From contig JBAIAA010000118.1 in the NCBI GenBank assembly GCA_037893245.1, positions 744,001 to 808,000 of the forward strand: 64,000 nucleotides of DNA, in the 5' to 3' direction. Below, one piece after another: positions 9,951-47,185 of this stretch. The first letter of the stretch is position 1. Every line of letters begins with the position of its first letter. The DNA is from Crossaster papposus. Taxonomy: Eukaryota; Echinodermata; Asteroidea; Velatida; Solasteridae. Position numbers and translations under genes: made by a program. The notes under the pieces were generated by a model. It was not told where the DNA came from. It searched no databases and saw only the letters and a program-made list of their open reading frames with translations.

Positions 9951-10110
9951 ATCGAGTTGGCTCAACGGTCGAGTAGGCTCAACGGTCGAGTTGGCTCAAC
10001 GGTCGAGTTGGCTCAACGGTCGAGTTGGCTCAACGGTCGAGTTGGCTCAACGGTCGAGTTGGCTCAACGGTCGAGTTGGCTCGACTTGGCGCGACGGTCG
10101 AGTTGGCTCG
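9950..10110. repeat. 17-bp minisatellite
   Basis: The unit CTCAACGGTCGAGTTGG repeats about eight times with almost no variation between about 9958 and 10080, then degrades to two variant units by about 10110. The near identity suggests recent expansion. A long open frame crosses it only because 17 bp repeats lack stops; it is not a gene. Confidence 0.92.
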
Positions 10111-10533
10111 ACCTTCCTCTGCAGTAAGGTTTAGCGTTTGATTTATCGATTTCTTTGTTTGTGTTTGTGATTTTATCACTAGCAAGTAGCAAAATATTTG
10201 CCTAATTTATTTATAAAATAAGTATGACTAATGACTGTAAAGTTAGTCTATCCCCAAGGGCTAATGTCAGGAGCGATAGCAATGTTACAACGTTGTATAC
10301 ATCATTGTATAATTGTATTCCACACAAATAATTAAAACTCATTTGCACAGTTTTGCACAGTTTTTTTTGTATAATCTTTAGTTGCAAAATATTATTAACA
10401 TCTTGTTTTCACAAAATAAAATAACAAATTATGAAAGATATAGATGTCGATAAAAGTACAAATAAAACATTAAATAAACCATTTACAGCTGTCAAAAAGA
10501 AAATTACTTTCGTTAAGTTTTCTTGGTTTAAAT

Positions 10534-10805
10534 TTAAAGGTAGGATACACCATTTGCAGATATCGAAAATATTTACTACCGAATTATTAATAAATATCTT
10601 ACTTATTTGAAAGTAAATAATGATTCTAGGCATCTCGCAAAAAAAAGAAGATAAAACAATCGCTGTTTTTGTGCTTTTCTCGGCATCCGTGATTGTAAAA
10701 CTTCGGACAGGTCAGTTAAACGATATTTACTATAAGATACAACCCCCCAAATCTACCCATTCATGATAATTAAAACAATTACCAATGGTGTATCCTACCT
10801 TTAAG
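10534..10805. mobile_element. TTAAAGGTAGGATACACCAT-family MITE, copy 1
   Basis: Terminal inverted repeats read TTAAAGGTAGGATACACCAT on the left and the near-complement ATGGTGTATCCTACCTTTAA on the right. The internal phrases TATTTACTACCGAATTATTA and GGTCAGTTAAACGATATTTA are found in all other copies (near 36.4, 42.5, 47.9, 49.0 kb). It is about 270 bp and carries no coding sequence. Ends with TTAA fit a TTAA-targeting family (piggyBac- or Kolobok-like), but an autonomous partner is not in the window. Confidence 0.85.
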
Positions 10806-11935
10806 TAATGATACTAAAATAAATTTAAATCAAATAAGTTAAGATGGCCTAAGAGTAAGACAATTAAAGCTGTTTACTACTGGTGTATTTAAGTAATTAA
10901 ACAAAAATACAAATAACTTGTTATAAAGATGAGCCCGTGACACTTTATACAATTTTCATTTGTAGTTGGATGAATCTGTAAATAGATGAAAATGTTGATG
11001 TTGGCTACATTTGGTCGATTTGTGTGATATCCCAATCGCACTATGTGAATGGGAAATCTATTGTTTATGCAGCCATCCGTAGTTCGATTATAAGCAGAGA
11101 AATGTTTACACCATCGACAGATTGTGCAACAAGACTTGCGCTTTGCTCGACCGCGCAAAATCCTGATCTTGCAGCAACATGTTTGCACAATCACACAAGT
11201 CTTGCGTTGCACAATTTGTCGATGGCAAATGAACACATGATACCTGTGCGAACGATATGGGTTCAAGGTGACTATATAGGTCCAAGGCCCCCGGGTTCAA
11301 GGTGACTATATAGGTCCAAGGCCCCCCCCCCCCCCCCCCCCCCCCCTTATTTTGATTTGCACACACACAATATAATAGTTGCCATTTAGTTCCCCCCTGA
11401 AAAATTGGTGCACCCCCAAGTTGCCCTTTAAAAAATAGACCATGTAGTTACGCCACTGGATAGATCACCTGATAGCCACGACCAGAAAATATGTTTACAC
11501 TACGAGTTGGCGAAAGGGTATTTCATGACAGTTCTTAAACAAAGGAAATTGTTGCATGCCTTCATCACTCATCACGCCAGGTGCCATTACATGTAGTTGA
11601 ATCCAACTGATCTATCCTGGCAGTCTTTGAAAAGTTGATCTCGTCTGTACATAAAGAAAAAAAATGCAAGTACAAATTTAGCAATGTTCAAAAAGGTATT
11701 TCTGCCCCCATTCCACTGACCTTCCTGGACACACGAGCCTACTTGTAATTAATCGTATGACAGCAAACACATTTTACAGCTTCTCAATCAAAACATGCAT
11801 GGCTTGAATTTGTACTAAAGGAGATGTACTGGTACATTTGTTTTGAGTTTAGGTCAAAATCTCTTGAAGTTGAAAAATAGAAATCTACATAAATGCCACA
11901 GTGAAAAGATCTGAAGGAAGTGGTAGGCCATTGGC
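10806..11935. other. intergenic with a short duplication and C-run
   Basis: The phrase GTTCAAGGTGACTATATAGG is duplicated in tandem at about 11261 and 11294, followed by a pure C run of about 23 bases (11324-11346). Near 11440-11460 GTAGTTACGCCACTGG is the complement of a GTGGCGTAACTAC motif also found near 1870 and, as GTGGCATAACTAC, near 18248, probably the end of a dispersed element. No gene is seen. Confidence 0.5.
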
Positions 11936-12115
11936 GTGTCCAGGGGGGGGGCTTTGGGGGCTGAAGCCCCCCGCACGCGCGGATCCCCCCAAAAAAAATG
12001 AAAGAGAAAAAAGAAGGAAAGGAGGAAAGAAAAAACGAAAGAAAAAACGAAAAAAAAAAATATGATTTGACTCAGCCCCCCGCAGGAAAAAATCCTGCAC
12101 ACGCCTCTGCAGGCT
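11930..12115. mobile_element. small inverted-repeat element, hAT-like ends
   Basis: The left end TTGGCGTGTCCAGG followed by a G-run is mirrored on the right by CCTGCACACGCC. The interior is purine-rich low complexity (GAAAGAAAAAACG iterations). Short GC-rich TIRs of this type are typical of hAT-like non-autonomous elements. No clear 8-bp target duplication was seen, so the family call is tentative. Confidence 0.5.
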
Positions 12116-13550
12116 GTTCATTTTCGAATCATTTAGTATTCGATATTCGAAACTGCGTCATGAGTTATGACCGAATAGTCAAATATTCCAAACTTGGGTT
12201 TAAAAAGAAAACAGTTTTTGAAAGGTATAAGTTACTGGGCGACGATATTAAACTTTATTTGTGGGTGAATATTGTTGCTTGTACCTGCTGATTTGTGTAA
12301 CTTTCTGGTACATGATTATTGTGTTTGATTCTCTGAAAAAAGCATGTGCAATACAGTTGGTATAACACAGGAAACTTTGGTTGCCTAGAGCCCTGGCATG
12401 GTTGTCGTGGCGCCGTCTGGGCCCGGGATTTGTCAAGCTCTGCGACCAAATAGCTCACCTCTATAAGCACAAGGCAATATGTGATGTGTAGTACACCGGC
12501 ACACGGCATCTTTGTCACTGTACATGTCTAACAAAGGAATGGGCATGGTAAGAAAAAGAAGAAACAAATGTTTTAACGAATATTCAAACTAGCAAAATGG
12601 TATTCAAATATTTGGTTGATATTTGAATATTCGAAACCCCTAGAATGTGGGACTCAATGAGCCAGTTCAGTATCTCAATGAAATAGTCTAGGTCAAAGGT
12701 TATTCAGGATAAAATTGCTGATGTAATGTCACGCGATGCTAAGCAAACTGCCCATTCTGATTGAATTTAAGATGATTGAATTTAAGATGGTGCGACCATT
12801 AATAAAGCGTGCGTTAGTTATGCGGAATGACCTGTGACCCATTTAGTTGAAATGACAAATTGAATAATTTGTATCAATATGGTCCAGTTTGATTTGACAC
12901 TGCATATTACAATGTACCTTGAAGTCCAAGACGGTCATCAATTCTACCATGGCTGTCAATCTCTTATCCTACTGTGGTCATAAGTTCTTCACACTAACCT
13001 AGCCCACATCTCTTCGTCACATCCTGGTCGTTGATTCTACGCCCAATCCTCGCTGTCAGTTCTTCCTGGCTGCCATATTTCTAGTTTCAATTTAAGATGT
13101 AATTCTTGTTATACAAATATTGTTTTAGTATTTATTAGTAATAATTAATTTATCACATCAGGTCAATAAGAAGTTTATCCGGTCTTGTAACTCATCATCA
13201 GGTTCATATTTGCCTATTTAAATGAATCATTACAATTGGCATTCCTTGGTCATAATTCTTTATAATTTGACTAAATTAATGACCAAAATTATGATCGACT
13301 GGATGTTGTGTTTTGACTTTATTACAACTTCACTGTCCAAAGGAAATTATAATTGCAATTCATGTGCTTGATGCCTCCTCAACTAGGCCCTACATAAATT
13401 GTATAAAAATGACCACTCCTTCGAACCAGCACATGGCCTATACTAGATTAAACATTCCTATAGCTTGTGAGCAATGGCCCTCGGTTCAAATCACAGCGTC
13501 ACGTGAAGCTATTTGCAGATTATTGTATTTTCTTCCTAAGTTTCATTGAT
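12116..13550. other. intergenic, nothing recognised
   Basis: AT-rich DNA without splice-bounded coding segments or recognisable elements. Short inverted stretches (ATATTTGAATATTCGAA-like near 12590-12640) occur but define no element. Confidence 0.4.
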
Positions 13551-13555
13551 CTGGA

Positions 13556-13672
13556 GTAGTCCGAGTTACTGACTGGACTCTAGTTATCGCTTCTTTAACA
13601 TTTGGACATCGCCAGATGATGTCCAAATGATAAAAAAAAAAGCGATAACTAGAGTCCAGTAACTCGGACTAG
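13556..13672. repeat. about 115-bp near-perfect palindrome
   Basis: The left arm GTCCGAGTTACTGACTGGAC..GCTT is mirrored by AAGCGATAACTAGAGTCCAG..GGAC; inner arms CATTTGGACATC and GATGTCCAAATG extend the stem. The left arm has one extra GACT. Such a stem is a short foldback MITE or a recent inverted duplication. It lies about 950 bp upstream of the nuclease start codon. Confidence 0.85.
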
Positions 13673-14333
13673 ATCTGGAGGATTTATTTTTTAATTGCAC
13701 TTGGTTTGATCATGTTTGATCATGGAGCTATACAAAAAGGCTGATGCCCATCTCATGAATGCAAAGTCACAATGAAATTGAAGGTAGCCATAAATCATTA
13801 TGGTAAAAATGTCTAAGTCTATAAACAGTGCCTTGGTTAATATTTATAATTGCCAATTTCAGTGCAACATGACATTGGTCTAGCTGCTGCCCGTTTCTGC
13901 CCATTTGATTAACAAATTGTAGGGCCTACATGTATAATTTTATCATGGTCAACAATTTTAACTGAATTAATTGGAAGTCTATCCAAAAGTCAGTAGGAAA
14001 TGGTCGAACTAGAAGTAGTAAAGTAGCCTAGGCCTACCGTTTACATTTGAGAAAAGTCGGAAAGACGTTACTAAAGACAGTCTGTGAAACTGAAAGGACG
14101 TCGCCAGCTTGTCTGGTTTATAATTCCGTTTCTAATCACCCAAAATATTTGACCTAAAGAAACACATTTTTATACACCTAAACAAAATGCATACCTGCAA
14201 ATACTTACCAAATATGCTTCACGTCATTATGACTGCCGATCATTTTTAGAATGCTATCTGATTTGTTTACTTTTATGTGTTGTCAAGTTGTTTACTACAC
14301 GTGGGGCGATGTGTCACACACAAGTTCGCTTAC

Positions 14334-14344
14334 CAAAATGGCGG
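14334..14344 (+). promoter_or_regulatory. YY1-like site upstream of the nuclease gene
   Basis: AAAATGGCGGC matches the animal YY1 consensus and lies about 285 bp upstream of the XPG-like start codon, in a locally GC-rich stretch (14300-14620) unlike the surrounding AT-rich DNA. No TATA box is evident. Promoter function is inference. Confidence 0.4.
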
Positions 14345-14619
14345 CCGATCTGCTCCATGCCGTACTACCATCAGCCAATGGGCGTTTAGTACACAGTAAA
14401 CTGTCTTGCGCCGCTGCGCGGCGCTCTAGGGTCTTTGCTTGCAAGGTACACATTGATTCATAGCATTGTGCACACACGTAGACGTGACACAGCACATGCA
14501 CAATTCCACGCACGAGGCACGGTGATCGCGCCCTGTCTGATCGCGTTGCAAGCCCGTCTTTTTGAATGACACACCGGCGGTAGCGTGGTATTGTGATCGG
14601 CCGGCCAACTGTTTACAGC

Positions 14620-17600
14620 ATGGGAATCAAAGGCCTGCTGTCGAAATTGCGTGAGCATTCCCAAAGGATACACATATCAGAGCTTCCCCCAAACAGTCGG
14701 ATCGGGATTGACGCCTCTATTTGGCTGTATAAAGGAGCTTCCAAGTGTTGTTTAGAGCTCGTACAAGGAGTAGACACCGACATGTAACACATCATGTTAC
14801 AAATGTATATCGTTTCCTTGACCTTGCTCTATGGTGATATTTTAAATGGATCACACAATCATAAACGGATAGTATAATCATGGATGAATAAGATTAAGAA
14901 GGAATGTTGTTGAATTGTGAAATTGCATATTGTTAGTTTTGGAATTCGACAAAATTCTACAAATTCGTTAAAAAGAGGCATTACAGATAGATCTGCTTGT
15001 TGTAGTTGTTGTAGGGGTGGTCCATGACTTTTAACCAGGCTTATACATGTAATTACATGTGGAATGTAAATACATCCTATTTTTAACATTGAGGTAGGCC
15101 CTAGTCATGGTAGGGATACGATGTACATAACATTGTGATGACTCGGTGACCATCTAAAAACAAAGTGAATTTTATAACACTTTCCATACATGGACATCAC
15201 TATAAATTTTCCCCTGCATGCATAATTGATCATAAAAATTAATAGAAAGCAACAGCAAGTCATAGAAATTTCAATTTAATAGCAGAGACAATATTTCAGC
15301 ATTTACAGAATATATTAAAAAATTTAAAACCAGTCTCGGTCAAAGCATGGAGGAAAAAGTATTTCTTCGTGGTCATAGGGCTTGATGAGTACAGGGTGAT
15401 CATTAAGCCATGTCCAGGTATGGACAATTTTCCAAAGTTTTCTTTTCTTAAAAGATTGTTTTTAAACGTTGGATTCGCGTGCCAACATTTACATTTGGAT
15501 TTATTGTTTTTGATTCATACTGGATGCAGATACATCAAGACATTTCTTGATGCCATAAAACTATTGGAGGGGAACAACTTGCAACCAGTTGTGGTTTTTG
15601 ATGGCGAACCACTACCTGCTAAGGCTCATCTGAATGAACAACGAGCTAGGTAAGATATGCACTGATGCTTCGAAAACAAAATCAACTTGCAGTTATTTTC
15701 AGTCACATTTTAAAAATATTTTTGTTAATGTAATTTAAAGTTCAACTGTGTTTTCCTCATGTGTCCTGGAGGAAGGTTGCAATTTTTAATTTACATTGTA
15801 CCACAAATTATGACAGTGCTTGGCCCTAACATTATAAATTATTTAAATGTTCAATTGTTACAGTATAATAAACAGATGAAATGTAACTACAGATGAAATG
15901 TATACAGATGATAATATTGTGAATACAAAAAGGAACCACTGTAATGTACTTTAATTTTCTTTTAATTTCAAATCATCATTATATCATACACGTATCTGAA
16001 TTTTTATTTTGTCTAGTGTTAGACGAGATGCCCGTGTGCAGGCACTGTCTTTACTGAGGGAAGGACAAGATGTTCATGCAAGGAGACGGGCTGCGGCTGC
16101 TGTACATGTCACCCCAGAAATGGTTGACAATGTTATAGTGGTGATTTTTTTTCTTTTGTTTGAAGGAAGGGGGATAAGAATAAAAATTACTTAAGAATTA
16201 TGTGTAGTCTCCCTGTCATTACATTTAGTTTTCATCATAAAGTCACTATTACACAGTTCAAGAAAATTAATGTCAGTGAAGTTCTTTGTTCAGTTTGATT
16301 ATTATCAAATGGAATGTACATTTGTAACCGTCTACTGTTTTCTAAAAGCAATACTGTTATGGTATAACCATAATGCCTCATGTCACATGCTGTGAATGTT
16401 CAGGGACATAATGACATCTACCTTTCAAAATAACTTGCACTTGTTACATTTTTCTACAGTCTTTGAATCGGAACCATATTCCTTGGCAACAAGCACCTTA
16501 TGAGGCCGATGCCCAACTAGCCTACATGTCTGTCAATGGACAGATTCAGTATGTTATATCCGAGGATTCAGATCTACTCGTATACGGAGCGTTACAAGTA
16601 AGTGTCGTGAACATTTTTAATGATTAAAAATTATACTTGCTAATCATAAACCGTAAAAATAATAATGAAGAGAAGAGGGTTACATACTCAAAACTAAAGA
16701 GTTCATTTAAATTTATAAAATGTTATTGCCAGCAACATTGTCAATAATAGTGAAGTTTGATTTTTGATGTTATAGTTTGTCAATGGATTCCACCTGAAAT
16801 ACAACAATTCCTTTTGAAAGGTTGACATGGTATCTCAGCAACACAATTTATTAAACATCAGAATTTGGCGTTCAGAATTTTGTGTCATATTTATTAAGAG
16901 GTATGTATTTTTAACTAAAAGTTTAATTCAATGATGCCCTACACAGGTCATTTACAAGTACAACTGCATTAATGGAAGTGGAGAAATGTTGAAGAAGACA
17001 GACCTACAGAGAGCATTTCCCGGCTACACACGCACAAAGTTTCAAGAAATGTGCATCCTAAGTGGTTGTGACTACCTTCAGTCACTGGCAGGCGTTGGGC
17101 TAGCAAGAGCTGAAAAATTTGTCAACAGTGTTTCAGCGGCAGATATCACTCGGGTAATAATTGATAAATTTTACTTAACCTGACACATTTCCCAAAAGAG
17201 GTACTACAGAGAAAAAGAAAAAGCTAACATACAATTAAAGCCAATTAATAATGTCAATCTAGCCTGTCGGGTTCCTTTTCAGAGACCACATGAAAACCTT
17301 TGTAAAAAAAGGGCTGCAACCATCTAGGAGAGTTGTCTGGCAGACATCTTGAAAAGACCTCCTCCATAGTTTCCTGGAATAAAGGCAGGACCCTGTTCTT
17401 TATTATTAATTTCTTCCTCAACATACATATTTTATTTTATAACACAGGAACTGCCAAATATTGGAAGGGTACTTGGCAGAGCATTGGTTGTGGAGCAAGA
17501 GTACATGGAGAACTTTAAGGCAGCACTCTTTGCTTTTAACCATCACGTCGTTTTTGATGAGAACAAGGGTGACCTCGTCCCATTCACACCATACAAACCA

Positions 17601-19206
17601 GGTTTCAAACTGTACCCTTCAGGGGGAATGTATCCTTTTTGTTACCATTGTAACAACATTTTCCTTTGTTGCTGTATAAAAACCGATTTGTGCTCCACCA
17701 CCTATATGTTTTAACTGGTCGTGACAAATAAGCCAATACAGTCAAAAAAATATACTTAACTTTGTGATAATAATTAAACAGGACTGACAGGAAGTTGCCA
17801 CTCCAGGGCAACATGGATGCATTGTTGTTTACTCTTGGTGACTTTGACATATCTGGTAAGCACAATATCTCTTTGAATTATGGGAAGATAGTGTTATTAG
17901 CTTTCATATAATGACATAATGACATATTGACATTACCCATCACATACAGTAATAGTGAAGTTGCCGTTCATTACACGATATTAATAAATACCTAGGAGAG
18001 TTGCTGGCTTCTGATTGGTTGAGACTCGATCAAGTGGAGTGGATTATCAGGTAGTAATAGCATGGGTTTCAAGAAGAAGCGAATAAATGTTACCTGAACC
18101 AGCAATAATCAAGCATCATGTAAGCCAATGATTGGCCGAATGCAACAGTTCTACGGTAACTTGTAACAAGGACGCGTCAAATCTTGATACGGCGCGCTAT
18201 AAAATGTACGTGTAAAACGTTTGTATCTATTCGCGCGGCATATTTCAGTGGCATAACTACGGGAAGAAAAGTGGGGGGGGGGGGGGGGGGGGGGGGTGTG
18301 CACCCCACCTGATAATGCGGGTGACCCCTGAATATTTCTCTGCCATATTTCCCATTTGGCCCAAAAGGAAATTTAGACCGATGTTCTATCCATTTTGCAG
18401 GTGTTCTTGACACGTCGTATGAGCCGGACATCACTTTTGAGAATTCAACATCAAGTCCTGATGATTCAACTCATTTACTGCGATCAAGGGGAGAGTTCAT
18501 TCACAATGTTGAGATTATCAGAAATTACAACTGGACAGTACCAGGGCTCCCTGTACTCACACTGTCCCTTGCTCTTGGAACAGGGCTTGTCAACAAAGAG
18601 CATTCCCAAATAGCCCTGAACCTGACACCACCATGGGGCATCCATCAGATCCCAGAACATGTTCATACTTCAGTGAAATGCATGGAAAAATGTGACATCT
18701 CCATCGAAGATAAGGATTACATTCTCTTATGGAAGTGGGAGTTTGTTTGGGATGGTGTTCAGTCCAGTGGAACGTCTAGTGAGATTGAACTGACAGGTAG
18801 TGCCAGTGAACTAGATAGTACAGAAAGCCCTGATATAGTTCTGTCTGGTGAAAGTAGCCCTGAAGAGGATGTCGAGCACTCCCTACCATTTAAAGTAATG
18901 GGAAGTGTTTATAAAGTTTCACGGCAGGACATGCTGCTTTCAGCGAAGGAGGCAATGGACAGAGGAGAAGAGGTTGGAGTAACCTTAGAACCAGAACCGA
19001 ACAACCCAAAGGATCCAAGAGCAATTCAAGTAATTCTACACACAAACAACAAATCTGCATGTGTGGGCTACATACAGCGAGAACTCACAGAGTTTATTCA
19101 CCCTCTGATTGTAGATTTTCAAATTGTGAAATTATGTGTGTCACATATCAAATTCCAGTTATTTAATCCTCCTGGTTATTATCTCAAAATTATTATCTCA
19201 AAATAA
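14620..19206 (+). CDS. EXO1/FEN1-like XPG-family nuclease with C-terminal HIRAN-like domain
   Basis: Eight exons join in phase: 14620-14783, 15530-15649, 16017-16140, 16460-16597, 16947-17153, 17448-17629, 17782-17855, 18401-19206, giving 604 codons and a stop. The donor of exon 3 could be 16137 instead. The protein starts MGIKGLL, the usual XPG N-terminus whose Gly2 becomes critical after Met removal. Active-site acids are all present: D31 (IGIDASIW), D79 (VVFDGEP), E151 and D153 ([10 protein letters not shown]), D172 and D174 (SEDSDLL), D224 (LSGCDYL), then the helix-hairpin-helix GVGLARA at 231-237. Spacing is nearly identical to EXO1 as recalled. An acidic Ser-rich linker (about 430-490) leads to a HIRAN-like region (about 497-590) with [16 protein letters not shown] and VGYI. 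Predicted activity is 5'-flap or 5'-3' exonuclease. It converges with a transposase-like gene 385 bp downstream. No AATAAA lies between stop and neighbour. It is unlike true EXO1 in lacking the long mismatch-repair C-terminus. Confidence 0.92.
18240..18345. repeat. G-run and GTGGCATAACTAC element end inside the nuclease intron 7
   Basis: GTGGCATAACTACGGGAAG followed by a pure G run of about 22 bases and GTGTGCACCCC interrupts the intron between exons 7 and 8. Related GTGGCGTAACTAC sequences lie near 1870 and 11450 (complement), so this is the end of a dispersed repeat inserted in the intron. Confidence 0.55.
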
Positions 19207-19553
19207 CTATCACAAGAAAAGGTAGATGGGAAGCTCTTGTACTGCTGAAATCACTCAGTGTGCGTTGAAACATTATTGTTCCAAACTACAATTTGACGAG
19301 GTACTTCGCTCATTTGAGTAAAGTGTACTGCTTTACCGATTTAAATAATTTTAATAATTTATTGTATTTTCGATAATTAACAAAGACAAATGTTAAAGCA
19401 GGTTTTCGAAAGTTCAACAATTAATGTATGATCACAACTTTTATATTTTGGTATTTCAATCTTTCCGTAAAGGCTTTGGAAAGTCATATACATGTTTCCA
19501 AACTTTTGGAAAATTCGCGACATCATCAGGATGACAGACGCACAGATGTCGAG

Positions 19554-19559
19554 TTTATT
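19554..19559 (-). terminator. candidate polyadenylation signal of the transposase-like gene
   Basis: AATAAA on the minus strand lies about 32 nt past the TGA at 19591-19593. It is the nearest canonical signal and would end the transcript inside the 385-bp gap before the convergent nuclease gene. Confidence 0.5.
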
Positions 19560-19590
19560 AATAGTGCTATGTCATTTTGGAGCTCAGTAT

Positions 19591-22500
19591 TCACAAATTG
19601 GGTGGAGCAGGAAGAGGGTTCTCCACATGGTGATATTTGTCCCTGATAGTCCGCCGACCTGCCCTTGGGGCTTTCGCCATGGCTGGGTTTTGCTTGGCTG
19701 GGTTCCTGACGGCCCATGTCTGTTCCAGTCGCTCTTGACCTTTTCTAGATGATATGTTAAATGATGGCAGTGGTCCCAGTTGATACCTATCATCTTTCGA
19801 TTGATGGTAGAAAAAAGGGAGATCTGTGTCTAACCTCTTACAAAATTCATTGAGGATCTTCCTGAAATGAAAGCACAGAAACATAATTTCAGATTTAACT
19901 ACCGTTCAATGTCATATGTTTCTTTGCAAATACCGTCTGTTCAAACCGCATATATTTTGTTGACAAATCAATTTAATTTTTTTTAATATGCCCTTTTACA
20001 AAAACCTCAGGTTGTTCTAACAACTATGCCCAGCCCAGTAAGCTTTGTTTGTCTACCACCATGCTTTTAAATCTTGCCACCAGGTTCGAAGACCATGTTA
20101 CAAATGAAAAAATGTAAAGACAATAATTCAATTTGTTCTAGAAATAATTCCTGGCCCTACGCAATACTAACAAATTTTACTTGGGAGAATTTGTATGAAT
20201 TCATCCCCCAATTTTCATGCGAATATCAACCTATATTTAAGTATGCATTCGAACCTCAATAATAAGAGCACTGTTAATACAACATTATGTTTATAACAAG
20301 TAACATTTTAGGTCCCAATTACTTGTTCTTCTTTGTGTTTATTCCTGATAAAATGGTAATCAGCAAAGTCCCAAGGACCTTATTAACAAGGTTTGACTGT
20401 ACAACTCGGAGAACACTGTACCTGTAGCTAAAGATGAAGTCTTTGTGGTCAAATATTCTACCAAGCATGTGGTGGACTACTGATATAAAAGCTTCCACAT
20501 CATCAGAGGTTGCAGCACGGGGATGTTCGGGAGGGAGTCCTTCTGACACAAGTTCATGTCGCATTTGTTGGCTCTCTATGTTTGCAAACAATCCAACCAC
20601 CACTTCTCTTGTAAAACCCTGCAACCCTTTTACTGATCTGTGGAGCATCAAAAGTCATGTATGTGTACTACATTACATTTTTTGTTAAAAGAAAAGGCAA
20701 TTTTCATTTGTCATTCCAAATTACATTGTGGTGTATTCATTAGAAAAGTCAATTTCATTTGTCATTCCAAATTACATTGTGGTGCATTTGCTAAACTAAG
20801 GCATCATACACCAGATATCTATTGATATATTGAGCATCATATGACTGCTGTCACATTCATGCTTGCATTTCCTGTTATCATTCTGAACGAAATAATGTTT
20901 CACTCAATGGTTACATTGGAGGTGGTTTTTGGCAATAAAGTGAAGTTCATGAAGAAAAGAAATGAGCATTCTTTGCTGTGAGTAATATTTTTCTTGTATA
21001 TTGATGTACACATGGTAATGTTACCCCACACAATTACACCATAGAAATGTATATTGAAGGAGGACAGGTCACAGGATGAGTAGAAGCAAGCCTGAGACTA
21101 TGACTTTCACATGGTTGCTACACAACAATATCCAGTTATACACATGAAATATTACCTGTTGACATCAATGTAGGAATAATCTCTGGTGCTTGCTCCAAAC
21201 AGCCAATCCTCTAAGATGAATGTCAGCATGTCCTTATTGAACTGTGACCTCTGTTCCTCAGTAACCCCTCTTCCATCTGTAGCCTTGTGCCAGTTGGCAA
21301 CTACTCGAGCAAACCTGAAACAACCAAATGTGGAAAGGGAAATTATCAATATTCAATTGTCAATGTATTGCACTTTGCAAGAAGCTAAAGCATGCATCTG
21401 ACACCAATACCCAGTCAAATGTGGTGGAAGTATATGTAAACTGTGACATTGAAAATGCTGAAAGAAACATGATATTATTTTAACAAAATTAATTGATGAG
21501 CAAAAACCATGTTTGTTGCTAGGACGACCCTTAACGATGCTTCAAATGGAAAATTATGACTTGAACTGTATTAAAAACTGTATGAGCAATTCAGCCTAGG
21601 TTAATGTCTGTATTGAACAGAATACGAGGCTGACAAAATATGAAAATATAGACAACAAATAGAAAAACTCCATTACAATATTTCAGAAAAAAAATTAAAT
21701 TTGCATTAAAAAAACAAAGAGAGAAACACCTGATTGTAAAAACAACAGGGAACATGATATGATAATGGGAACAAGGGAACATTGTGATTAAAAACAACTG
21801 AATTATGAATTTGATTAGGAAATAACGCGTTTGTTTCTGGCACGATTCTTGACGACGTTCTGATGCAGATCCAAACTACCCATCGTTCACCCTACTGTAA
21901 TAACATAAATTGTCTAATTATCTTTTGTTTCACATGATTTAGTAACAGCTCTGTATGTAAACAGTAAGAGAGTAAACAATGCAATATGATTTGATAATGA
22001 AGCTGTTTCAAATGGGGAACACATCAAATGGAAATAATAATACATTAGATATATATCCAGATATCCTGAAAGAAAAGCAGATATTTTTCATCAACAGAAG
22101 ATATCTGGAAAACAACAAACAATTAAATAGAACAATGATAAATTTGTGAATGAAATTAGTATGAGCATGTTCAAAAAGCCGAAGCTTATGGTTAACATGC
22201 CCTTAACAAATTCATTGGTTAGGGGATCCACTAAACGTGCATAAAAATAAATTCTTTGTTTTTTTGTTTTCATGCATGTACACAGGGCAAACCTGGCTTC
22301 ATTGGTGTAGTCTTTCCTTTCCATGAAGGAAATGACTCCAGGACTGAACATCCTTTCACAGTCTGACACATTTTGTTTTCGTTGCCCAGTTACTGCTGCT
22401 ACTGTTAGCCCAGTACTGGGGTCTTCAAGAGCTTCCACCCACCTATCCATACATTGTTAGCAAAATTATTACAATATAGACTGCATAATATTAATACATG

Positions 22501-25500
22501 TAGGAACAAATATAACAATACATCAAATCAGTCCATAAATGATCCAGCATGGAATCCTTGATTTGCAGTGCAGAAAACAACACCCATGCTTGTAAAAACA
22601 TCATTTCAAAAATTGATTTCCATCCTTTCAAAAACGTCATACTTTGCATCCTAATTGGGCGGTTGTTGTGTATAATTAGGGTCAAGTAAACATTTCAATG
22701 AAATTAAAACATATCCAATGTAAATCACCTTTTCATGTTGCAGTCAGGAATAGTTCCACGTCTCGCACAATTGGTGATTCGCTTCAGAAGATGACAGTGG
22801 TCCTCCCTGTCATGAAATTCGACTCTGGTGTCTGGGTCAACCTCAGGAACATACAGGTGATGTTTGAAGTCGATCTGCTGTTCTAAGTACTTCTTTATAG
22901 TATGCCTGTAAATGTATGTAGCCATAACACTGCGAAGACATTCTGTAACACTTTCTGAAACTCCTGCAATAATTGACCAAATAATTATTTACTTTGTAAT
23001 AAATTCATATATAAGTAGAATGAAAAATATAAAAATACTAAAGTCAAGTTCATGATAATGCTAGCTCCTGTTTAACCAGTTCGCGCCGGGATTATTTTAA
23101 CAACGCCGAGCCGACGGGCGGGATTATTTTTAACGAAACTCGATCCGAAGCGTGTTCAGGCTGATAGTGCCGGGAAGCACACCCACGCATTTCCGGCCTT
23201 GCGCGCTGCTGACATACATTTCCGAACTTGAACTTGGCGTGTTTATGCGTCATCCGTTTTAAATTTTGGGAAATTTTTGCGTTTATATACGTCATCCGGC
23301 GCGAACTGGTTAGAAAATATTGTGGTAGTGGCAGTCACAGGTATGGATTTTTATGTACAATGAAAGACTCATTAAAAAGTGAGAGTTATTTAAAAAGTAC
23401 AGTTTTTTGACTTGCACTTAATTTGTTCGAGTGTTTCTGGGTTAAAAATACAAAAACCGATATAACTACCTGGTGTCCACGTATGCACAACAGATGCTGG
23501 AGCATATAGGTGTTCATGAAGCATGTGCATTGCTGCCTTGAATGACACACCTTGCTGTAGCCGATCATATAACCACACAACATCAACAGTAGGTACAGCT
23601 GGATGAGTAACAGCAGCGCGAACAGTTGTTTCATCTGACTCAAAGATTACAGTTTGAGAGTTGATATTAAGAAATTGACAGTTTTAATCAAAACGAAATG
23701 TCTATTTTAATTAACTTTCTTTTTTTTTATAAAAAAAAATAAAAAATAAAAAAAAATGAGAAGTTGGTTACATTGATTACAGGACAATACCCATTTTTTT
23801 TTTTTTTACATGTGCATATCTAAGTGTCAGTACATTTACAGCTTTTCAAAAGTAGAGGTGTGGAATGGGGAGAGAGTTGTAAGTTTTAGTTGTGAAATGG
23901 TCCTTACAAGCAGAACTGCAAACAATTGGATGGAATATTTCTCAGTAACAATGACAAACATAAAATGAAAATATGGTCTTACACACTGCATGAGTAAAGA
24001 AAAGATTACCAGTAACAGTTGGAGTCAAGTAACTTTTGAGGTCATGCACAGGGATTGCTTTGGATTCCCTCTTTGCATCCATTAATAGCTGAATAGTTGA
24101 TACAGGCCGAGTTTCTCCTTGTGTCCGTAAGGAGTTCCACTCACCATCTGTCACAAAACCTGAAGTAATGATAACAATTTTCCAATAATGTATTCAGAAA
24201 TTTCAAACATTAGTTTGAAACATAACAAAATTTACCTTCTCCCATTATTCTTATTTTTAAAAATGTGTTCTATTAAGAACACGTGGAGTCAGGTTGGTGT
24301 GGTCCCTTTCCTTGTCTTTCACCTGTGCAATTTGCATTTCGGCCTTAGCCAACATGGGAATGTCGATCGATTTCAGTCCCCGATGTGATTTGGGCAGAAT
24401 ATCATTTCTGGGTCTTTCGGGCCCTGTTCCAACAAGACTGCGACCCTTTGGACAAGGAGTTCCTGTGGTCAGGGTTGGTGTAGTCCAGTATACTTTAGTG
24501 TTGTACCCTGGTGTTGTACCATGTTGTACCATCATCAATCCCAACTGATATCCTCTGCGTATCTTCATATCAGTATGAAATTTTCCTGTATATTTAACAT
24601 TATTTGAAGGTGAATGATTCTGATGAAAGCTAGAGCTATTTTAAGTATGGAGCCGAGCTAAATATTGTTACTCCCTGATCATTTCCACTCAAGCCAATGA
24701 TATAAATATATAGGCCGATGCCTCCAGTCCATGGGTGGATATTCCTGGGCCACATGCTGTACATGTACCACCATCAATCCCAATAACTACCTCCTGTGTC
24801 TCTCCCCTTTCAACTTGCCGACAATTCAAGAATCTCCAATCTCATAACTCCCATTACATATAAATAAAGAATATTTATTTACCAACTACAGTCATTCCAA
24901 CTGATTTCATTGACATCTTCAGCTCCCTAGCTAAACTCCTGATCTGGTCATCGGTTGCTGTTGAGATGGGCATTACTCTCACTGGTAAAGCATAAGGCTT
25001 GCTTCTCCTAAGTTCGTCCGAGATCATGAAAATCAGCAGATGGGTGGCAACTTCTCTACTGGCTCTTGTTAATCCAACTACATATGACCTTAGTTCTGAT
25101 TGAAGCTTAACCATGTCTGTCCTGTCGCCTAAAGCACAGACATAAATAGATAAATACATGTATTACATGTACCACACTTACTTTCTTCATGTATACACCC
25201 TGGTATGATTTCATTAATTTCCTTGCAATAACAGATTAACGCACATGGCTACTCAGCAACATACTATTGATTCAATTAATTTTCTAGTCTTGGTTCCAAG
25301 GCGTTACTAGGAGGATAATTCACCATAAACACAGACATAAACCTATGTACTTTATGTCTGTGGCTGGATGCATTCCACATCCCATAAATCACAGAAATAT
25401 AAAGATTTTTGTTATGTCTGTGCCATATATACACGAAAGCTGACTTTGTCGACGAAGGACACCCGCTTTAGTGAATCGCTGCTGTCCAAATCGGTACGCG

Positions 25501-28500
25501 TTGAAACAGCGCACCGTTAAGGACACCTTGAAACCAAGACTAGCTGAATAAGTAGGGGGCTTCCCTTTTTCAAAAGTTGAACTAAATTAATTTATGAATC
25601 ATCGTGGGCCGTTTTGTTTTTGGCTTGATATCTCCTTTGAAAGCTTATAACTAAACCAATGCTAGAAAATTATTGATTTAATTATGAATTATATTTTTGG
25701 GGTGCCACACCCAACAGCACACATACACCAACTATCAGAAATTCTATCTTCTGACATTTAGGAAATATTAACAAAAAACTGGGATGAGACTTACCAGTAA
25801 GGATGATATCATTTATCAATTTGGTCAGGCTTTTGTTGCTCTTTAAAAGGTCACTGTATGTTTGAGCCTCCCATGCAACTTCCATCAAGACATTGCGTGC
25901 CACCCTAGGGTTGCCTTGTTTCTTGACTAGTTTTTGTGAGGATCTGTCTTTGTCTGTGCTCATAAAAGATTTTAAAGAAATGTATGTGGAGGTTACATGA
26001 GTATGCTCAGTAAAGGCATTGTACCAAACGATGAAATGAAAGTTGTAACCCTAATATGTAGGTACATGTACATGGATGCCATGGTGGCAGGCATATCAAC
26101 AGAACAGATCAATGTGCAATATGTAGTTGAAAGAAGTTTAATAATTAATTAACATAGTTCTTGTATATCAAAATCAATTAATCATAGCTAATCACTTTTT
26201 CACTTTGTCAAGCTGGCGTAGTGTTTACTTTTCTCGCCTTCCACCGCTGTGGCCGGGTTCGATTCCTGCCTGGACCACATGTGGAAGTCCCTGCCCTATT
26301 CTATGAATTTTCTTCTGAAAATTCTTCTGGGGTTTTCCTTCCACTTCTAAAACTGTAATTTCTTCTCCTTGTCTTTAATTGATAGGTTTCTTCAGGCTTT
26401 CGAGCTTCAGTGCCTGTGACACTTTTAGGAAATTGTTAGTTTCATTACCAGAAAGAATTTAAATAAATAAATAAATAAACAAAACATCCATACTTTTTTT
26501 CAATGCTTTCTTCTCAGTCGTTAATGTCTCCAAGCAAGATGGCAGATCACTGAGCTTCAGGTTTTCGATGGCACACAATCTTGCTTTATAGGCAGAATGC
26601 GTTTCTTGCAATTGTCCATCTCCCCAATCTACATCTCCTGTCCAATCACCTTTAATATAAACAAAAATAGGAGTTGCCGAAGTTCAATGAAATAGAAATG
26701 ATTCCTCCTAATGACACAGTTGTTGTTGACCGTGCCGCAGCACGAGGACAAATTTTACAATACTGGTTATAAGGGGAACAAGAGAGATGACTCTGAAATT
26801 AACCTTCTCATACTTTTAAGGCATCCAAAGTGTTCTCCAAATATTATATGTGTCACATGTGTGTATGTCATACATGTCATTCCTTGAATTATTCAATCAA
26901 AATGAATAATTACCCTTTGTGCTCTCTCGAACTTCTTTGTTTACATCACAGGCATCAGCCTTTATCCACCATCTTCCTTGTGGGTTTGTCCGGTGGGCTT
27001 GTCTAAGCATCTCAACCTAAAGATCAAATTTAAAAAGATTCCCAAAAGATAATTAACACAACTGTAGTACTTGCTTTGCATAGGAAATTTTTTTTCTTCA
27101 AAACACCATCTTTTGTACGTGCAAATAGACAAAGAACCAACTGAATAAGCAGTAACAAAGTATCGACAAAATAGTAACAAAAACAACAATGGGACTGAAA
27201 ACCAATATTATCCCTCTATTTCTCATGGCTTGTAAAGTGAGCGAGCCTTATTGAGAAAAATACTTAAAAACAACCAAACCTGAATCGAAGCATCTGCAGC
27301 GAATGGAGTTTCTGCAATATGCTTACGCAACGTCCTGGCAGATAGACCAACAACATTAACTTTGGCCTGTGAACAGATGAATGTTCAATACAGAAATCAT
27401 TATCCGGGAATTAAAATGCAATTGTCTGTGTGTATAATTTACACCCTTTGAATCTGTTCGTGTTTAGTAACTTGTACTATAAAGGTAGACTACTTACATG
27501 TGCTGTCTCCAGTCTGTGCCATGTTTGTTTACTTGATGGCTGGTTTATGGTAAGCTTCTGTACATCAGCCTCAGATGATCGGGGGGTTGTTGTCTTGACT
27601 GGAGTTGATGTAGATGTCGGTCCAAGGGACAAAGCCACTGCTTCTGCGAGAATATCACTGGATACCTCATACTTGAACATCGGCCCAGTGAATAGCGCAA
27701 GAAATTTTTCTCCGCAGTGAGCATATAGTGTTTCAAGGAAAGAGGCATAGGCCGGGTGTATTTTGACACAATCCATGTAACGTTCATGGAAAAATTGAAT
27801 GTTGCTCTCAATCAATGGATACGGCATTCTGTTCATGTCAATCTTGCCTGATGCCAAATTATCAGCTAGTTGATAGATGATGTTCGGTCTGTTTGCCTGA
27901 AGTGTCCATATCATTCCCTCAACTAACACTCTAGCACAGTTCCTTGGCACTGAGAAGTCCGGATCAGTTGTTTTTATTGCCTTCTCGAACAGAAACTGAA
28001 GATGCTGCTTATCAGTGGAACTTGGCACACTTTTGACACTTTCGCTGCTGTCAGTGTCACTATCCCCATGTGTAACATGAAAGGTGTCCTCTGCAGCTTC
28101 TACTGTAGGGAAGATCTTTATCAGTCTTGTAACTGCACTGCGACAGGCACTATCTGTTGCAATACAAAAAAGGAAAATTAAAATTTCATTTTTAATGTGT
28201 ACTCACTGCCCATCCTTAACAACAAAATGTTGTGGTGGTGGACGCCTGTCAAAGTTAAGTTTATAAGTAAACTTCAAAATGTTAAAAGAATAACATGTGT
28301 TGCAACCTTACAAGAATTTTTTTTGAAATGGCTATATTTACCTATTTTCACAGGAGCATAGTAACTAGTTGATCAAAGTATTGATGCAACTATGCATTTT
28401 TATACATGAAGTATCATCATTATTTTACTGACCTGTTCTTGACCCGGAACACTTTAGGTTGACAAACTGGGCACAGTCTTTCCAAAATTGCTTATTCTTT

Positions 28501-29346
28501 TGCAAGGGCCAGCCAGCTTTCCCCTCTGCAGTGTGATACAGTGCAACGTAAGTCACCAGACTTTTGGTCTCACTGTCGCTCCACTGCTTCTCAGCAACAT
28601 GCTTGAAAGAGAATTAAAGAATAACAAAACTACATACCCGGTATCATTATTGGACTTGGAACTCACAATTATTTATCAGGACCTAATTGGTATACAAATT
28701 TAGATAATTTTTTTATTTTTCTTTATTTTGCAACCTAATGATGAATTTCTGATGTTGATACATGTTATTTGTCATCATCGGGTGGGGTGGCTGTATCACA
28801 GCTTCATCACCATGAACGTCACTAAAAATGTACACTGTAAATACAACATCGCATTAACGTCACAAAATCATAGCCAGTGGCAACCAGAATTCATTACCAT
28901 TTTCTTTCTAATCAAGGCGTGGGGAATACAAACATTTTCCAGCTCAGACATACAGTGTGTACATACATTACATGTCATTGACTTTTTTATTGCAGAGAGA
29001 GGGAAATATTCTTTAATAATTTTTTTTTAAACATTATGTATCTCTCCAAATCCCATAGCAGTACTGGTCAGGAGAACAATATTGTTGATACAAATTGGGA
29101 ACAATACGTGTAACAATTTCAAATAGACATAACTAAAATAATGACAATTTAGAAAAATTGGTAGAAGATTATTAGCACAAACATTTTATATTTGTTTGCA
29201 GGTTGACTGTCAGTGTCAGTAACGTGCCAATTTATTCCCTTACCTTCGGGCTTTGGTGGTGCTTTAGTGGTAAATAACGACCGTCTCTTCTTGGTGTCAG
29301 GTTTGCCGGGTGTGTCTCCAGAAGAAATATGTTGGCGCCTACTCAT
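19591..29346 (-). CDS. putative Academ-like DDE transposase, SANT/Myb-like N-terminus
   Basis: Exons in transcript order: 29346-29244 (tentative first), 28601-28433, 28153-27498, 27366-27280, 27016-26914, 26649-26494, 25953-25795, 25128-24883, 24159-23983, 23634-23470, 22963-22729, 22442-22293, 21314-21156, 20637-20422, 19861-19591. From the second exon on, all junctions keep phase and give 982 codons without a stop; the first exon ends in a phase that does not match the second, so that junction or a missing small exon is unresolved. The second exon has a SANT/Myb-like stretch (QWSDSETKSLVTYVALYHT). Numbering from it, candidate catalytic acids are D530 (GFVTDGEWNSL), D691 or D694 (FHDREDHCHLLKRI, the Asp-x-HLLKxI signature of many transposases) and E869 (TSDDVEAFISVV). 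The whole protein is rich in helices and lacks membrane segments. I recognise no specific host protein. The adjacent XPG nuclease points to the Academ superfamily; this is inference from architecture. Introns carry a SINE and two MITEs. Confidence 0.82.
23072..23313. mobile_element. TTAACCAGTTCGCGCCGG-family MITE, copy 1 (in transposase intron)
   Basis: The left end TTAACCAGTTCGCGCCGG is mirrored by CCGGCGCGAACTGGTTA. The interior GAAGCACACCCACGCATTTC and TTTATGCGTCATCCGTTTT recur in the copy at 54129-54339. It is about 240 bp, non-coding, with a TTAA-type target at the left and a decayed one (TTAG) at the right. It lies wholly within an intron of the transposase-like gene. Confidence 0.9.
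24257..24568 (-). other. 103-codon open frame inside a transposase intron
   Basis: A minus-strand frame lies between the exons ending at 24883 and starting at 24159. It encodes a basic, Pro/Thr-rich peptide (for example PKSHRGLKSIDIPMLAKAE) and could end at a CAG|GTGAAAG donor. Including it would break the clean VGMTVVG-FVTDGEW join, so if real it is an alternative exon or an unrelated remnant. No domain is recognised. Confidence 0.3.
25284..25544. mobile_element. CTAGTCTTGGTTCCAAGG MITE in transposase intron
   Basis: The left end CTAGTCTTGGTTCCAAGG is mirrored by CCTTGAAACCAAGACTAG at the right. The interior includes a subsidiary inverted repeat (ACAGACATAAACC and its partner GTCTGTGGC region). 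It is about 260 bp with no coding. The outer bases resemble the CTTGGTTGCAAGACGTCC family at 52.2 and 56.4 kb and may be a relative. Confidence 0.8.
26205..26480 (+). mobile_element. tRNA-derived SINE in transposase intron
   Basis: A B-box GGTTCGATTCC sits at about 26258, preceded by AAGCTGGCGTAGTGTTTAC as an A-box-like head. The body continues TGGACCACATGTGGAAGTCC, and the element ends in AAATAAATAAATAAATAAAC, a simple A-rich tail. Orientation is opposite to the host gene. The head and tail differ from the SINE at 5.8 kb, so this is a second family. Confidence 0.75.
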
Positions 29347-30150
29347 TGTGTGAAAAATAGGTGAATTCTACAATATGGAAATTTAAAAAGAAAAACAATT
29401 CAGCAACTTGAATAACACGAGAAAGTAGAACAATTGTTCATGTTAATTTAACGCTTCATATAATTAGAAAGACTGTTGATTATAAATAATGACTGTGGTC
29501 ATCACTAGGTTCAGGAGGAGAAAAGCAAACGATAAACGTTTATGACGTTCAGACTAGGGTTGGAACAATTCAATCAGCAAAGATAAAACACGAGCCTAAT
29601 GATTTTCTGACAGTTACTTTGACAAGTGAAAGTTAAAGGTTCGCTATATGTTAAAGCATTCCTCTATGGTTAAAGCTAAGTGGTATATTCAAACTCAATT
29701 TTGTTTGGAGAACCAACAACACTCACTAGTTCCCCAATTTTTTTAAAAATAAACTAAAACAGTGAGTACCGTTCAGAAAATTCAGCTAGCATAAAATTGG
29801 TCTCACACGACACAGGCAGTGACATTTTAATTTGAGATATGCCAACGCTATTCAATTAAATATCATACTCAAATCCCTGTTATTAGGCCTAGTATTATGA
29901 ATAATTACCAGGTTGTTGAAAAGTAAAGCTTCATGATTATACACCACTGTTTAGTGTTACTTTACACACTCGCGTAAAACGTAAATAGAAAGCTGTCACT
30001 TGCAGTTGCACTGTGTGTCGATTCAGTCATGGAGAAATAAGACACATTATTCAGTCCAGTCAGTTTGTAAACAAGCTTCACACATACCGTGCGCGTGTTG
30101 TGTTCCCAGCCGTCGATTACGTGAATCCACATCTCGAAAGGTTTGGTGTC
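29347..30150. other. upstream region of the transposase-like gene
   Basis: AT-rich and non-coding on inspection. If the gene pair is a transposon, its right end should lie here or a little beyond. I compared this stretch by eye with 13.7-14.6 kb and found no convincing terminal inverted repeat. Confidence 0.4.
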
Positions 30151-30168
30151 CGACTACGTACACAAGCA

Positions 30169-30672
30169 CGGAATTTGTTTGGGGAGATGTCATTTTCGGC
30201 CAGTTTCGTTCGAAAACAACACGATAAAACGCAAGGGGTTCACAGGCAGATTTTTTTAAAAATTCAGTATATCACTGCTACATCCTTTTTTAACGTATCT
30301 ATGGAAAAAAATGAGTGGGTTCGAAGCACGATTTTTCACAATTTATCGATTATTATGGCCCTTTTTAGGGGAGGTACTTGTTAACGTCGTTTGAGTATTT
30401 GTGCACAATCTCCACGCGCATCAACGGTACGTCAACGCTTAATTTTTTCGACTGCTTTTTTAATTTTCAATACAATTTTTGTCATTGGATGATAACAATT
30501 AAGGTAAATAACAACCTTTTACAACTAAAAAAGACAAGATGTTAAGATTGGATGCCAAAAACTCTTTATTTTTCGAGTGAGAAAATTGTTCCCCCCTATT
30601 TTGAGAATGGACGGTACCACGGCGTTTCGCAATCACAGCCTCGAAGGGCCCCCCCTCCGCCCCCCCCTGCCC
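30169..30672. repeat. dispersed repeat, copy 1 of two
   Basis: From CACGGAATTTGTTTGGGGAG onward this segment matches 33454-33960 closely, including CAGTTTCGTTCGAAAACAAC, GATAAAACGCAAGGGG and the closing CGAAGG followed by a C-rich run. The two copies are about 3.3 kb apart in the same orientation. Frames of about 120 codons are open in both copies but accumulate different substitutions and show no domain. Confidence 0.85.
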
Positions 30673-31430
30673 CACGGGGTACATGAACTTTCTTTTTCCA
30701 GGCCGCGGAATTTTTTTTACACGCTAGCGCATAGCCTGGCCGGCCATTTCTGTGATAAATACCATGGAAGCGACTGATATTAGAGTCTAGCAATTATTAG
30801 CTGGTACTACGTAAATTGTTCATGTTCATTGTTCAAATGTTCATGTGCGATGTAAACAGGGAACAGTGAAGTTAGCACTTTCGGCAACGACTGACGACCG
30901 CCATTGTTGTTTACACCGGCATTCGTTTATGCTGTTCGTCTGGTTTTTTTCTGTTCCAATTTTGCCTTATTTTCTCCGTAAGAATCTATTACCGTGGTAT
31001 AACAAAACAATTGTTGCCTGCTGTGACATGGTCCATGGTCCATGGTACATGAGTTCATGTACCCCACGGGGTACATGAACTTTCTTTTTCCAGGCCGCGG
31101 AATTTTTTTTACACGCTAGCGCATAGCCTGGCCGGCCATTTCTGTGATAAATACCATGGAAGCGACTGATATTAGAGTCTAGCAATTATTAGCTGGTACT
31201 ACGTAAATTGTTCATGTTCATTGTTCAAATGTTCATGTGCGATGTAAACAGGGAACAGTGAAGTTAGCACTTTCGGCAACGACTGACGACCGCCATTGTT
31301 GTTTACACCGGCATTCGTTTATGCTGTTCGTCTGGTTTTTTTCTGTTCCAATTTTGCCTTATTTTCTCCGTAAGAATCTATTACCGTGGTATAACAAAAC
31401 AATTGTTGCCTGCTGTGACATGGTCCATGG
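30670..31430. repeat. two tandem copies of a 392-bp unit, identical by eye
   Basis: The unit beginning CCCCACGGGGTACATGAAC at 30670 starts again at 31062, offset 392 bp, and the next 365 bases match without a visible difference, ending GACATGGTCCATGG in both. Complete identity indicates a very recent duplication, gene conversion, or an assembly duplication. Short palindromes (GTACATGAGTTCATGTAC) lie at the junction near 31044-31062. No gene is encoded. Confidence 0.92.
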
Positions 31431-31505
31431 CGTTTTGTACACCCTCGGGGGCCATTTGCCCCCTCGGGTGTACAAAACGCCATGGACCATTGTCACAGCA
31501 GACAA
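31411..31505. repeat. about 90-bp near-perfect palindrome
   Basis: The left arm runs from TGCTGTGACATGGTCCATGG through GCGTTTTGTACACCCTCGGG and is mirrored by CCCTCGGGTGTACAAAACGC followed by CATGGACCATTGTCACAGCA, with a central loop of about CCATTT and one extra base in the right arm. It begins at the end of the second 392-bp copy. It would form a very stable hairpin. Confidence 0.9.
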
Positions 31506-33217: not shown

Positions 33218-34016
33218 ACAGGGGGGGGGGGGGGGGGCGGAGGGGGGGGCCCAACAAAGTGCGCCACCAACGTTGAAATGTATCTCATTCATTCTTCCAC
33301 GCTCGTGAGCTGCACATCTCACACAGTAAATACGTATAGATCGCTACCTCGAAGCGCACCATTGAAACACGTACAAATTTGCTCCGTGGATCGCTCCCCG
33401 AATTCAGTGATTCATACAACGTCCGCAAAGCCAGGTACACAGGCACGATCTACACGGAATTTGTTTGGGGAGATGTCATTTTCGGCCAGTTTCGTTCGAA
33501 AACAACACGATAAAACGCAAGGGGGTCACAGGCAGATTTTTTTTAAAATTCAGTATATCACTGCTACATCCTTTTTTAACGTATCCATGGAAAAAAATGA
33601 GTGGGGTCAAAGCACGATTTTTCACAATTTATCGATTATTATTGCCCTTTTTAGGGGAGGTATTTGTTGAAGTCGGTTGGGTATTTGTGCACAATCTTCA
33701 CGTGGTTCAACGGTACGTCAACGTAAATTTTTTTTGACTGGTTTTTCCATTTTTAATACAATTTTTGTCATTGGATGATAAAAATTAAGGTAAATAACTA
33801 CCTTTTTTTAACTACAAAAGACAAGATGTTAAGATATGATGCCAAAAACTCTTTATTTTTCGCGTAAAAAATTGTTCCCCCGCTATTTCGAGAATGGACT
33901 GTACAACAGCGTTTCACAATCGCAGCCTCGAAGGCCCCCCCCCCCCCCTCCGCCCCCCCCCCCCCCCCCCTCCGCCCCCCCCCCCCCCCCCCCCCTCCCC
34001 CCCCCCCCCCTGAGTT
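33218..34016. repeat. dispersed repeat copy 2 ending in a long C-rich run
   Basis: A G-run plus GTGCGCCACCAACGTTG (as at 9.45 kb) opens the segment; 33454-33930 repeats 30169-30650; then 33936-34010 is nearly pure C broken by CTCCG. Such a run is likely hard to sequence, so its length is uncertain. Confidence 0.8.
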
Positions 34017-47067: not shown

Positions 47068-47185
47068 TTTGGCTAATTTGAGATAGATGCGCGCGTGATG
47101 GATTCGTACCGTACGCATAAATAGAATAGGCGCCTAGACACGCCACAAGTCTGCTGATTGTCTTGTTTGCATTTGCGAGACGACG

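Follow-up and report, generated by a model that had tools for sequence, protein, structure and literature searches.

The locus considered here raises the question of whether two genes that face each other belong to the host or to a mobile element and, if to an element, to which kind. The window, as the whole stretch analysed is called below, comprises 64,000 nucleotides of contig JBAIAA010000118.1 of Crossaster papposus (assembly GCA_037893245.1; C118:744001-808000 in the short contig names used here). It contains a plus-strand gene for a nuclease with XPG and HIRAN domains and a minus-strand gene for a transposase-like protein, which a preliminary description had taken for one complete Academ-type element or its domesticated descendant. 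The best explanation of the locus as a whole, with a probability of about 0.8, is a recently active P-like DNA transposon that carries a nuclease proposed to process its ends; that the stretch is a P-like mobile element at all can be said with still greater confidence. At the level of sequence, the element has defined boundaries, inverted repeats, an 8-bp target-site duplication, copies elsewhere, a second family and two conserved convergent genes.

Copies and boundaries of the element

A search of the genome (1,023 Mb, 1,841 contigs) yields long matches to the window element on C806, C264, C877 and C59. The C806 copy is 99.91% identical to the window over 3,471 bp and 99.56% identical over 12,788 bp; it is flanked by CCCCCCTC, and its flanks have only repeats in common with those of the window within the 30 kb compared. 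The other copies show 93.6-97.7% identity over stretches of 1.4-3.5 kb, and one 836-bp stretch of C877 shows 86.8%. (C877 and C59 have internal insertions in common and could represent a single insertion in its two haplotypes, which makes it uncertain how many separate sites there are. For some regions, both haplotypes seem to be present in the assembly.) In C806, 602 of the 603 nuclease codons (5 substitutions) and 973 of the 973 transposase codons (3 substitutions) align without stops, and C264 has 597 nuclease codons with no stop. Three nuclease stops are present in C877 and two in C59, together with single-base indels, and the C59 transposase has one stop in 416 codons. Exons scored as absent from C264, C877 and C59 may fall outside the compared stretches, and transposase exons are listed further along all three contigs.

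The ends were obtained by aligning the genomic copies, a check suggested in the preliminary description, and this gave both shared boundaries and inverted repeats (5'-CAGGGGGGGGCGGAGGGGGGGCCC at the copy ends, where the lengths of poly-G and other G runs may depend on the assembly). The left end is common to C806, C264 and C877, and the right end is common to C806, whose match stops on the right at window position 30673. The left match starts at window position 14437 in C806, C264 and C877 (15220 in C59), and the left end of the window element is placed at 9444 because a nested second transposon separates it from these matches; C806, C264 and C877 lack the nested transposon and are continuous across its site. 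Early inverted-repeat searches, with the left side limited to 12000-14620 and 10000-14620, gave best pairs no better than shuffles; they missed the ends because the true left end sits beyond the nested transposon. The earlier view of one mobile element holding both genes is thereby upheld, with an extent larger than first given (Table 1); once the nested insertion and the 8 bp that it duplicated are subtracted, the element measures 16,306 bp.

Short copies of the ends are abundant. Exact matches to a 28-base pattern from the left end number 1,179 in the genome (0 for its reversed control), and a right-end search, in which 40 of 2,280 candidates were scored, gave 96-100% identity; all such copy numbers are lower bounds or pattern counts. 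When 30 loci were cut out, both ends were recognised in 26, with an exact 8-bp duplication at 18, a 9-bp duplication at one and none at seven, and shifting the flank by 30 bases as a control gave a duplication at 0 of the 26. The short copies measured (n=19) are 704-922 bp long. On C245 (289188-289686) there is a right end 99% identical to that of the window, with no coding exon among the matches listed there, which is possibly an internally deleted recent copy. A related transposase fragment (L052, G000:C1177:2500-6500), spanning residues ~54-341 and for the most part 41-49% identical, belongs to a tandem array of satellite-like character whose units are ~99% alike, and about 40 further places that may hold related fragments are on C375, C453, C183, C733 and other contigs.

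A diverged second family is found on C999 (L051, L053, L054), where the same two genes are again convergent within ~14.1 kb. Identity to the window proteins is 38-88% for its transposase pieces, which lie on the plus strand, and 45-80% for its XPG-HIRAN pieces, which lie on the minus strand. Its ends start CAGGGG, continue into CGGAAGGGG and are both flanked by the duplication GTTCCAAA (by eye). Compared between the window element and this family, 516 of the 603 nuclease codons give a ratio of nonsynonymous to synonymous substitution rates (dN/dS) of ~0.12, and 370 of the 973 transposase codons give ~0.10; dS is saturated, and intron-edge codons may be included. The matches on C599 are nearly the same as those on C999, of which C599 may be the other haplotype; C545 and C258 hold additional nuclease exons, some with stops.

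Beside the right end of the window element, a tandem duplication (30670-31430, spacing 392 bp) served as the insertion target and keeps an empty site. A palindrome at 31420-31490 has 33-bp arms that are 94% complementary and a 5-bp centre. The nested transposon has its own inverted repeats, CAAAGA(T/C)C(G/C)TAGAGCGCCG, and a longest stop-to-stop frame of 135 aa; within it, at 13557-13671, is a short hairpin like a miniature inverted-repeat transposable element, with repeats TAGTCCGAGTTACTG and, as judged by eye, apparently with GATCTGGAG at either border. Further along, a 371-codon open frame on the minus strand (46018-47133), which presumably encodes a protein resembling tubulin-binding cofactor C, is probably a host gene.

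The two genes and their relatives

Both genes are real, and 384 bp separate their stop codons (the plus stop ends at 19206, the minus stop occupies 19593-19591), as first noted to within a base. The nuclease gene has GT-AG at 7/7 introns and zero internal stops, and its product matches the Pfam families XPG_N (1.2e-16), XPG_I (4.5e-20) and HIRAN (1.8e-07). Across an alignment of six rows, made up of the window protein, its three relatives from Branchiostoma and EXO1 from two insects, residues D31, D79, E150, D152, D171, D173 and D223 do not vary; we take these to be the XPG/EXO1/FEN1 active-site acids, which had indeed been described as retained. The plus-strand protein thus resembles EXO1, of the XPG/Rad2 family, in having XPG_N, XPG_I and the seven acids, but it differs in its HIRAN domain and in a middle region that is common to the Branchiostoma relatives and not to the two EXO1 rows.

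The 14 exons ascribed to the minus-strand gene are borne out, with GT-AG in 13/13 introns, and its product has 973 aa (982 codons in the preliminary description). A candidate first exon lies further upstream; it is likely because its start, MSRR..GDTP, is common to the Branchiostoma proteins, and it does not join in phase to 28601. The structural match of the protein is to P element transposase, with an RNase H core and an insertion domain; although the models are weak, the fold that they predict speaks for a transposase. Among the acids proposed at first, D530 fits the second catalytic Asp, but the proposed triad of D530, D691/D694 and E869 does not hold, and the first Asp is likely D325 or D328. 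(D691/D694 and E869 are numbered 9 above D682/D685 of DREDH and E860 of DDVE and are taken as the same residues.) Candidates for the DDE triad are D325/D328, D530 and E860, and the predicted strands fit in a weak model. A scan of 7 members at E up to 1 revealed no THAP domain; among these, P0003 is without its N-terminus, P0005 begins inside it and the window protein was without its first exon. A Myb domain was matched in 1 of the 7 (E 0.0028), and the N-terminus is perhaps Myb/SANT-like, judging by this match. A search of PDB sequences with the transposase profile gave a single match, to a designed protein (E 0.48), and of 37 stretches in viral contigs that fitted a pattern, 0 were confirmed as relatives.

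Transposase relatives are few in the protein collection: a single-sequence search gave at least 6 and a profile search at least 7, 4 of them new; each scored the ~8,000 candidates sharing most words, and the lists may be incomplete. Their hosts are amphioxus, a brittle star, a hemichordate, a sea anemone and an octocoral. The nuclease has 2,387 relatives, the best three being from Branchiostoma; among the 120 of these 2,387 that were listed, a precomputed HIRAN match is present only in P0007, although P0008 nevertheless aligns across the HIRAN region. In Branchiostoma floridae the transposase-like P0001 and the XPG-HIRAN protein P0007 are probably on one chromosome, because both are on contigs of size 22,407,120. 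In B. belcheri the model P0130 has a nuclease piece (47/78 identical) and a transposase piece (44/63 identical); this model (Bbelb_035360) is chimeric and also includes a third protein with PF25273/PF20499. In B. lanceolatum, P0009 and P0127 are on contigs that differ in length, which counts against linkage of the gene pair. The pair has apparently been kept in Branchiostoma too. Two transposase lineages exist in Branchiostoma, with 65-67.5% identity inside a lineage and 47-51% across them, and the nucleases split similarly (70% over 251 residues and 56% over a further 129, vs 43-51%).

These homologues in amphioxus, hemichordate, brittle star and cnidarians, together with the two open frames, are what one might expect of a single-copy host gene pair, or of a domesticated transposon held by conserved synteny. 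A single-copy host gene would be present at one locus and have no terminal repeats, but here there are terminal repeats, copies at differing sites with their own duplications and two divergent lineages within one genus; in addition, the likely host EXO1 (by eye) is located elsewhere, at C191/C513 (38-58% identity over matched pieces). A host pair is therefore most improbable. For the window copy, the copies elsewhere and the empty site also dispose of the suggested domestication, and the preliminary description's own test, a lack of repetitive copies anywhere, gave the opposite result.

Table 1. Positions of the element, its genes and associated features, counted from the first nucleotide of the window
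Feature	Position	Strand	Details
Left target-site duplication	9436..9443		CCCCACGG
Whole element	9444..30669		21,226 bp; ends common to other copies, with duplication
Left terminal inverted repeat	9444..9468	+	CAGGGGGGGGGCGGAGGGGGGGCCC, 25 nt
Nested second transposon	9526..14437		4,912 bp; 8-bp duplication CTTGCAAG at 9518-9525 and 14438-14445
XPG-HIRAN nuclease gene	14620..19206	+	8 exons, 603 aa
Nuclease exons	14620-14783, 15530-15649, 16017-16137, 16460-16597, 16947-17153, 17448-17629, 17782-17855, 18401-19206	+
HIRAN region of nuclease	18883..19111	+	residues ~497-572; Pfam match 518-579
P-like transposase gene	19591..28601	-	14 exons, 973 aa
Transposase exons 1-7	28601-28433, 28153-27498, 27366-27280, 27016-26914, 26649-26494, 25953-25795, 25128-24883	-
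Transposase exons 8-14	24159-24010, 23634-23470, 22963-22729, 22442-22293, 21314-21156, 20637-20422, 19861-19591	-
E860 of DDVE	20493..20495	-	candidate catalytic Glu; in the 4/7 rows that extend there
D685xxH688	22791..22802	-	candidate P-type DxxH motif; invariant in 7/7 rows
D530 of VTDGE	24146..24148	-	candidate for the second catalytic Asp, where predicted strand 4 ends; conserved in 7/7 rows
D325/D328 of KADACD	26945..26956	-	candidate for the first catalytic Asp, where predicted strand 1 ends
Candidate first exon of transposase gene	29243..29346	-	start MSRR..GDTP
Right terminal inverted repeat	30646..30669	-	24 nt
Right target-site duplication	30670..30677		CCCCACGG
Empty target site in adjoining tandem repeat unit	31043..31129	+	100% over 87/120 joined flank bases
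Short copy of the element's ends	33219..34012	+	794 bp; 8-bp duplication AGTTTGTA

Affinity to P, hAT, Academ and Kolobok elements

The duplication size, the fold and the DxxH motif point to the P element and not to Academ, the class first suggested. The 8-bp duplication of the P superfamily flanks the window element, the C806 copy, the C999 family and the short copies in the numbers given above. The P element is characterised by 8-bp duplications, 31-bp inverted repeats, 17-nt 3' extensions and guanosine triphosphate (PMC7776569; here and below, papers are cited from excerpts), zebrafish Pdre2 has 13-bp repeats starting CATACC and 8-bp duplications (PMC10983969), and (C/D)xxH after the second Asp is given as a P signature (PMC8230255). 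With the Drosophila P element and Pdre2 the present element shares the 8-bp duplication, the P transposase fold, DxxH and internally deleted copies. It differs in its G-rich ends, which start CAGGGG where those of Pdre2 start CATACC, in its second gene, for the XPG-HIRAN nuclease, in its length (16.3 kb vs 2.9 kb in Drosophila; PMC7776569) and in the 155 residues from the second Asp to DxxH, which number 36 in the Drosophila element. In contrast to P and THAP9, no THAP domain was detected in its transposase, the N-terminus being perhaps Myb/SANT-like; for this reason it is named P-like, and not filed as a P element, despite its P-like duplication, fold and DxxH.

The sequences of the duplications bear on hAT, which the duplication size alone would also fit. 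Twenty-two different duplications were compared: those of 19 short-copy loci and those that flank the window element, the C806 copy and the short copy within the window. Their sequences lean to a palindrome, G-YY..RR-C, and to the P element target motif, GTCCGGAC (P = 0.003 in a small test). CAGGG ends such as those seen here are frequent in hAT elements, whose duplication motif is nTnnnnAn; this motif occurs in 13 of the 22 vs 9.6 expected (P = 0.13, in a test equally small). The hAT motif is not clearly favoured whereas the P-like palindrome is, and the structural match is to P element transposase, so that a hAT element with a divergent transposase is improbable.

The accessory nuclease recalls Academ, since the nuclease of AcademX is of the XPG type. 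In Academ elements the transposase is accompanied by an accessory nuclease or helicase, and AcademX, with 3-4 bp duplications, carries a nuclease, whereas AcademH has duplications of 9-10 bp (PMC10045372). The duplications here are 8 bp (9 bp at one of 26 short copies), the fold and DxxH of the transposase are P-like, and Academ is not included among the superfamilies named with C/DxxH in the excerpts of PMC9587614. An AcademX element, with an Academ transposase, an XPG nuclease and 3-4-bp duplications, is accordingly as improbable as a hAT element; the comparison with Academ is one with published descriptions. The Kolobok lineages KolobokP, KolobokE and KolobokD also combine a DDD/E transposase with an accessory nuclease, on the complementary strand in KolobokP, but their 4-bp duplications are TTAA-specific and their nucleases are of the His-Me finger, lambda exonuclease-like and DnaQ types (PMC9587614). 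A limited literature search found no P-type element with an XPG nuclease.

Proposed role of the nuclease

In the mechanism proposed for the P-like element, the minus-strand protein would pair the G-rich CAGGGG ends and cut and paste the element as P transposase does. The cut may be staggered and leave 3' single-stranded tails, as in P (17 nt in Drosophila), and with a P-like stagger a G-rich 3' tail would stay at the donor site. When the first 40 bases of the C806 copy were folded with quadruplexes allowed, one was predicted in the G-rich strand, which scored -26.0; the opposite strand scored -9.4 and an internal control -7.7 (one control, RNA parameters). HIRAN would then bring the EXO1-like 5' nuclease to the 3' tails; the HIRAN domain of HLTF reportedly binds 3' DNA ends, as Kile et al. 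are said to have found in 2015. There the nuclease could remove or resect the opposite recessed 5' strand or flaps, whether at the donor break, at the new joint or at both, and G-rich donor tails would thereby be repaired by copying, not by loss. The 3' tails of the P element itself are unusually long, and their repair is left to the host.

That the nuclease processes transposon ends in some such way stands, on this analysis, at about even odds. An alternative, which seems unlikely, is that it is a passenger gene serving the host or the element's expression rather than cutting or joining. The more than 1,000 left ends and the 19 short copies would agree with a passenger: since these short copies are too short to hold either gene, neither gene is needed in cis. 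On the other hand, the pair is kept in two families of this genome and apparently in Branchiostoma, and the nuclease is under constraint, with its seven acids kept. A more specific proposal, somewhat less likely than not, is that of a separate P-like branch with a Myb/SANT-like domain instead of THAP, its own EXO1-HIRAN nuclease for end processing and ends able to fold into G-quadruplexes, forming a co-adapted system that steers donor repair.

The near-identical C806 copy and the abundance of short copies make this a candidate active animal transposon. Its pairing of a transposase with a nuclease of its own may show how such elements handle the DNA breaks that they make, and the fusion of a 5' nuclease to a domain that likely binds 3' ends makes the tail-repair step testable. 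It suggests, moreover, that accessory nucleases, reported for Academ (PMC10045372) and Kolobok (PMC9587614), extend to the P branch.
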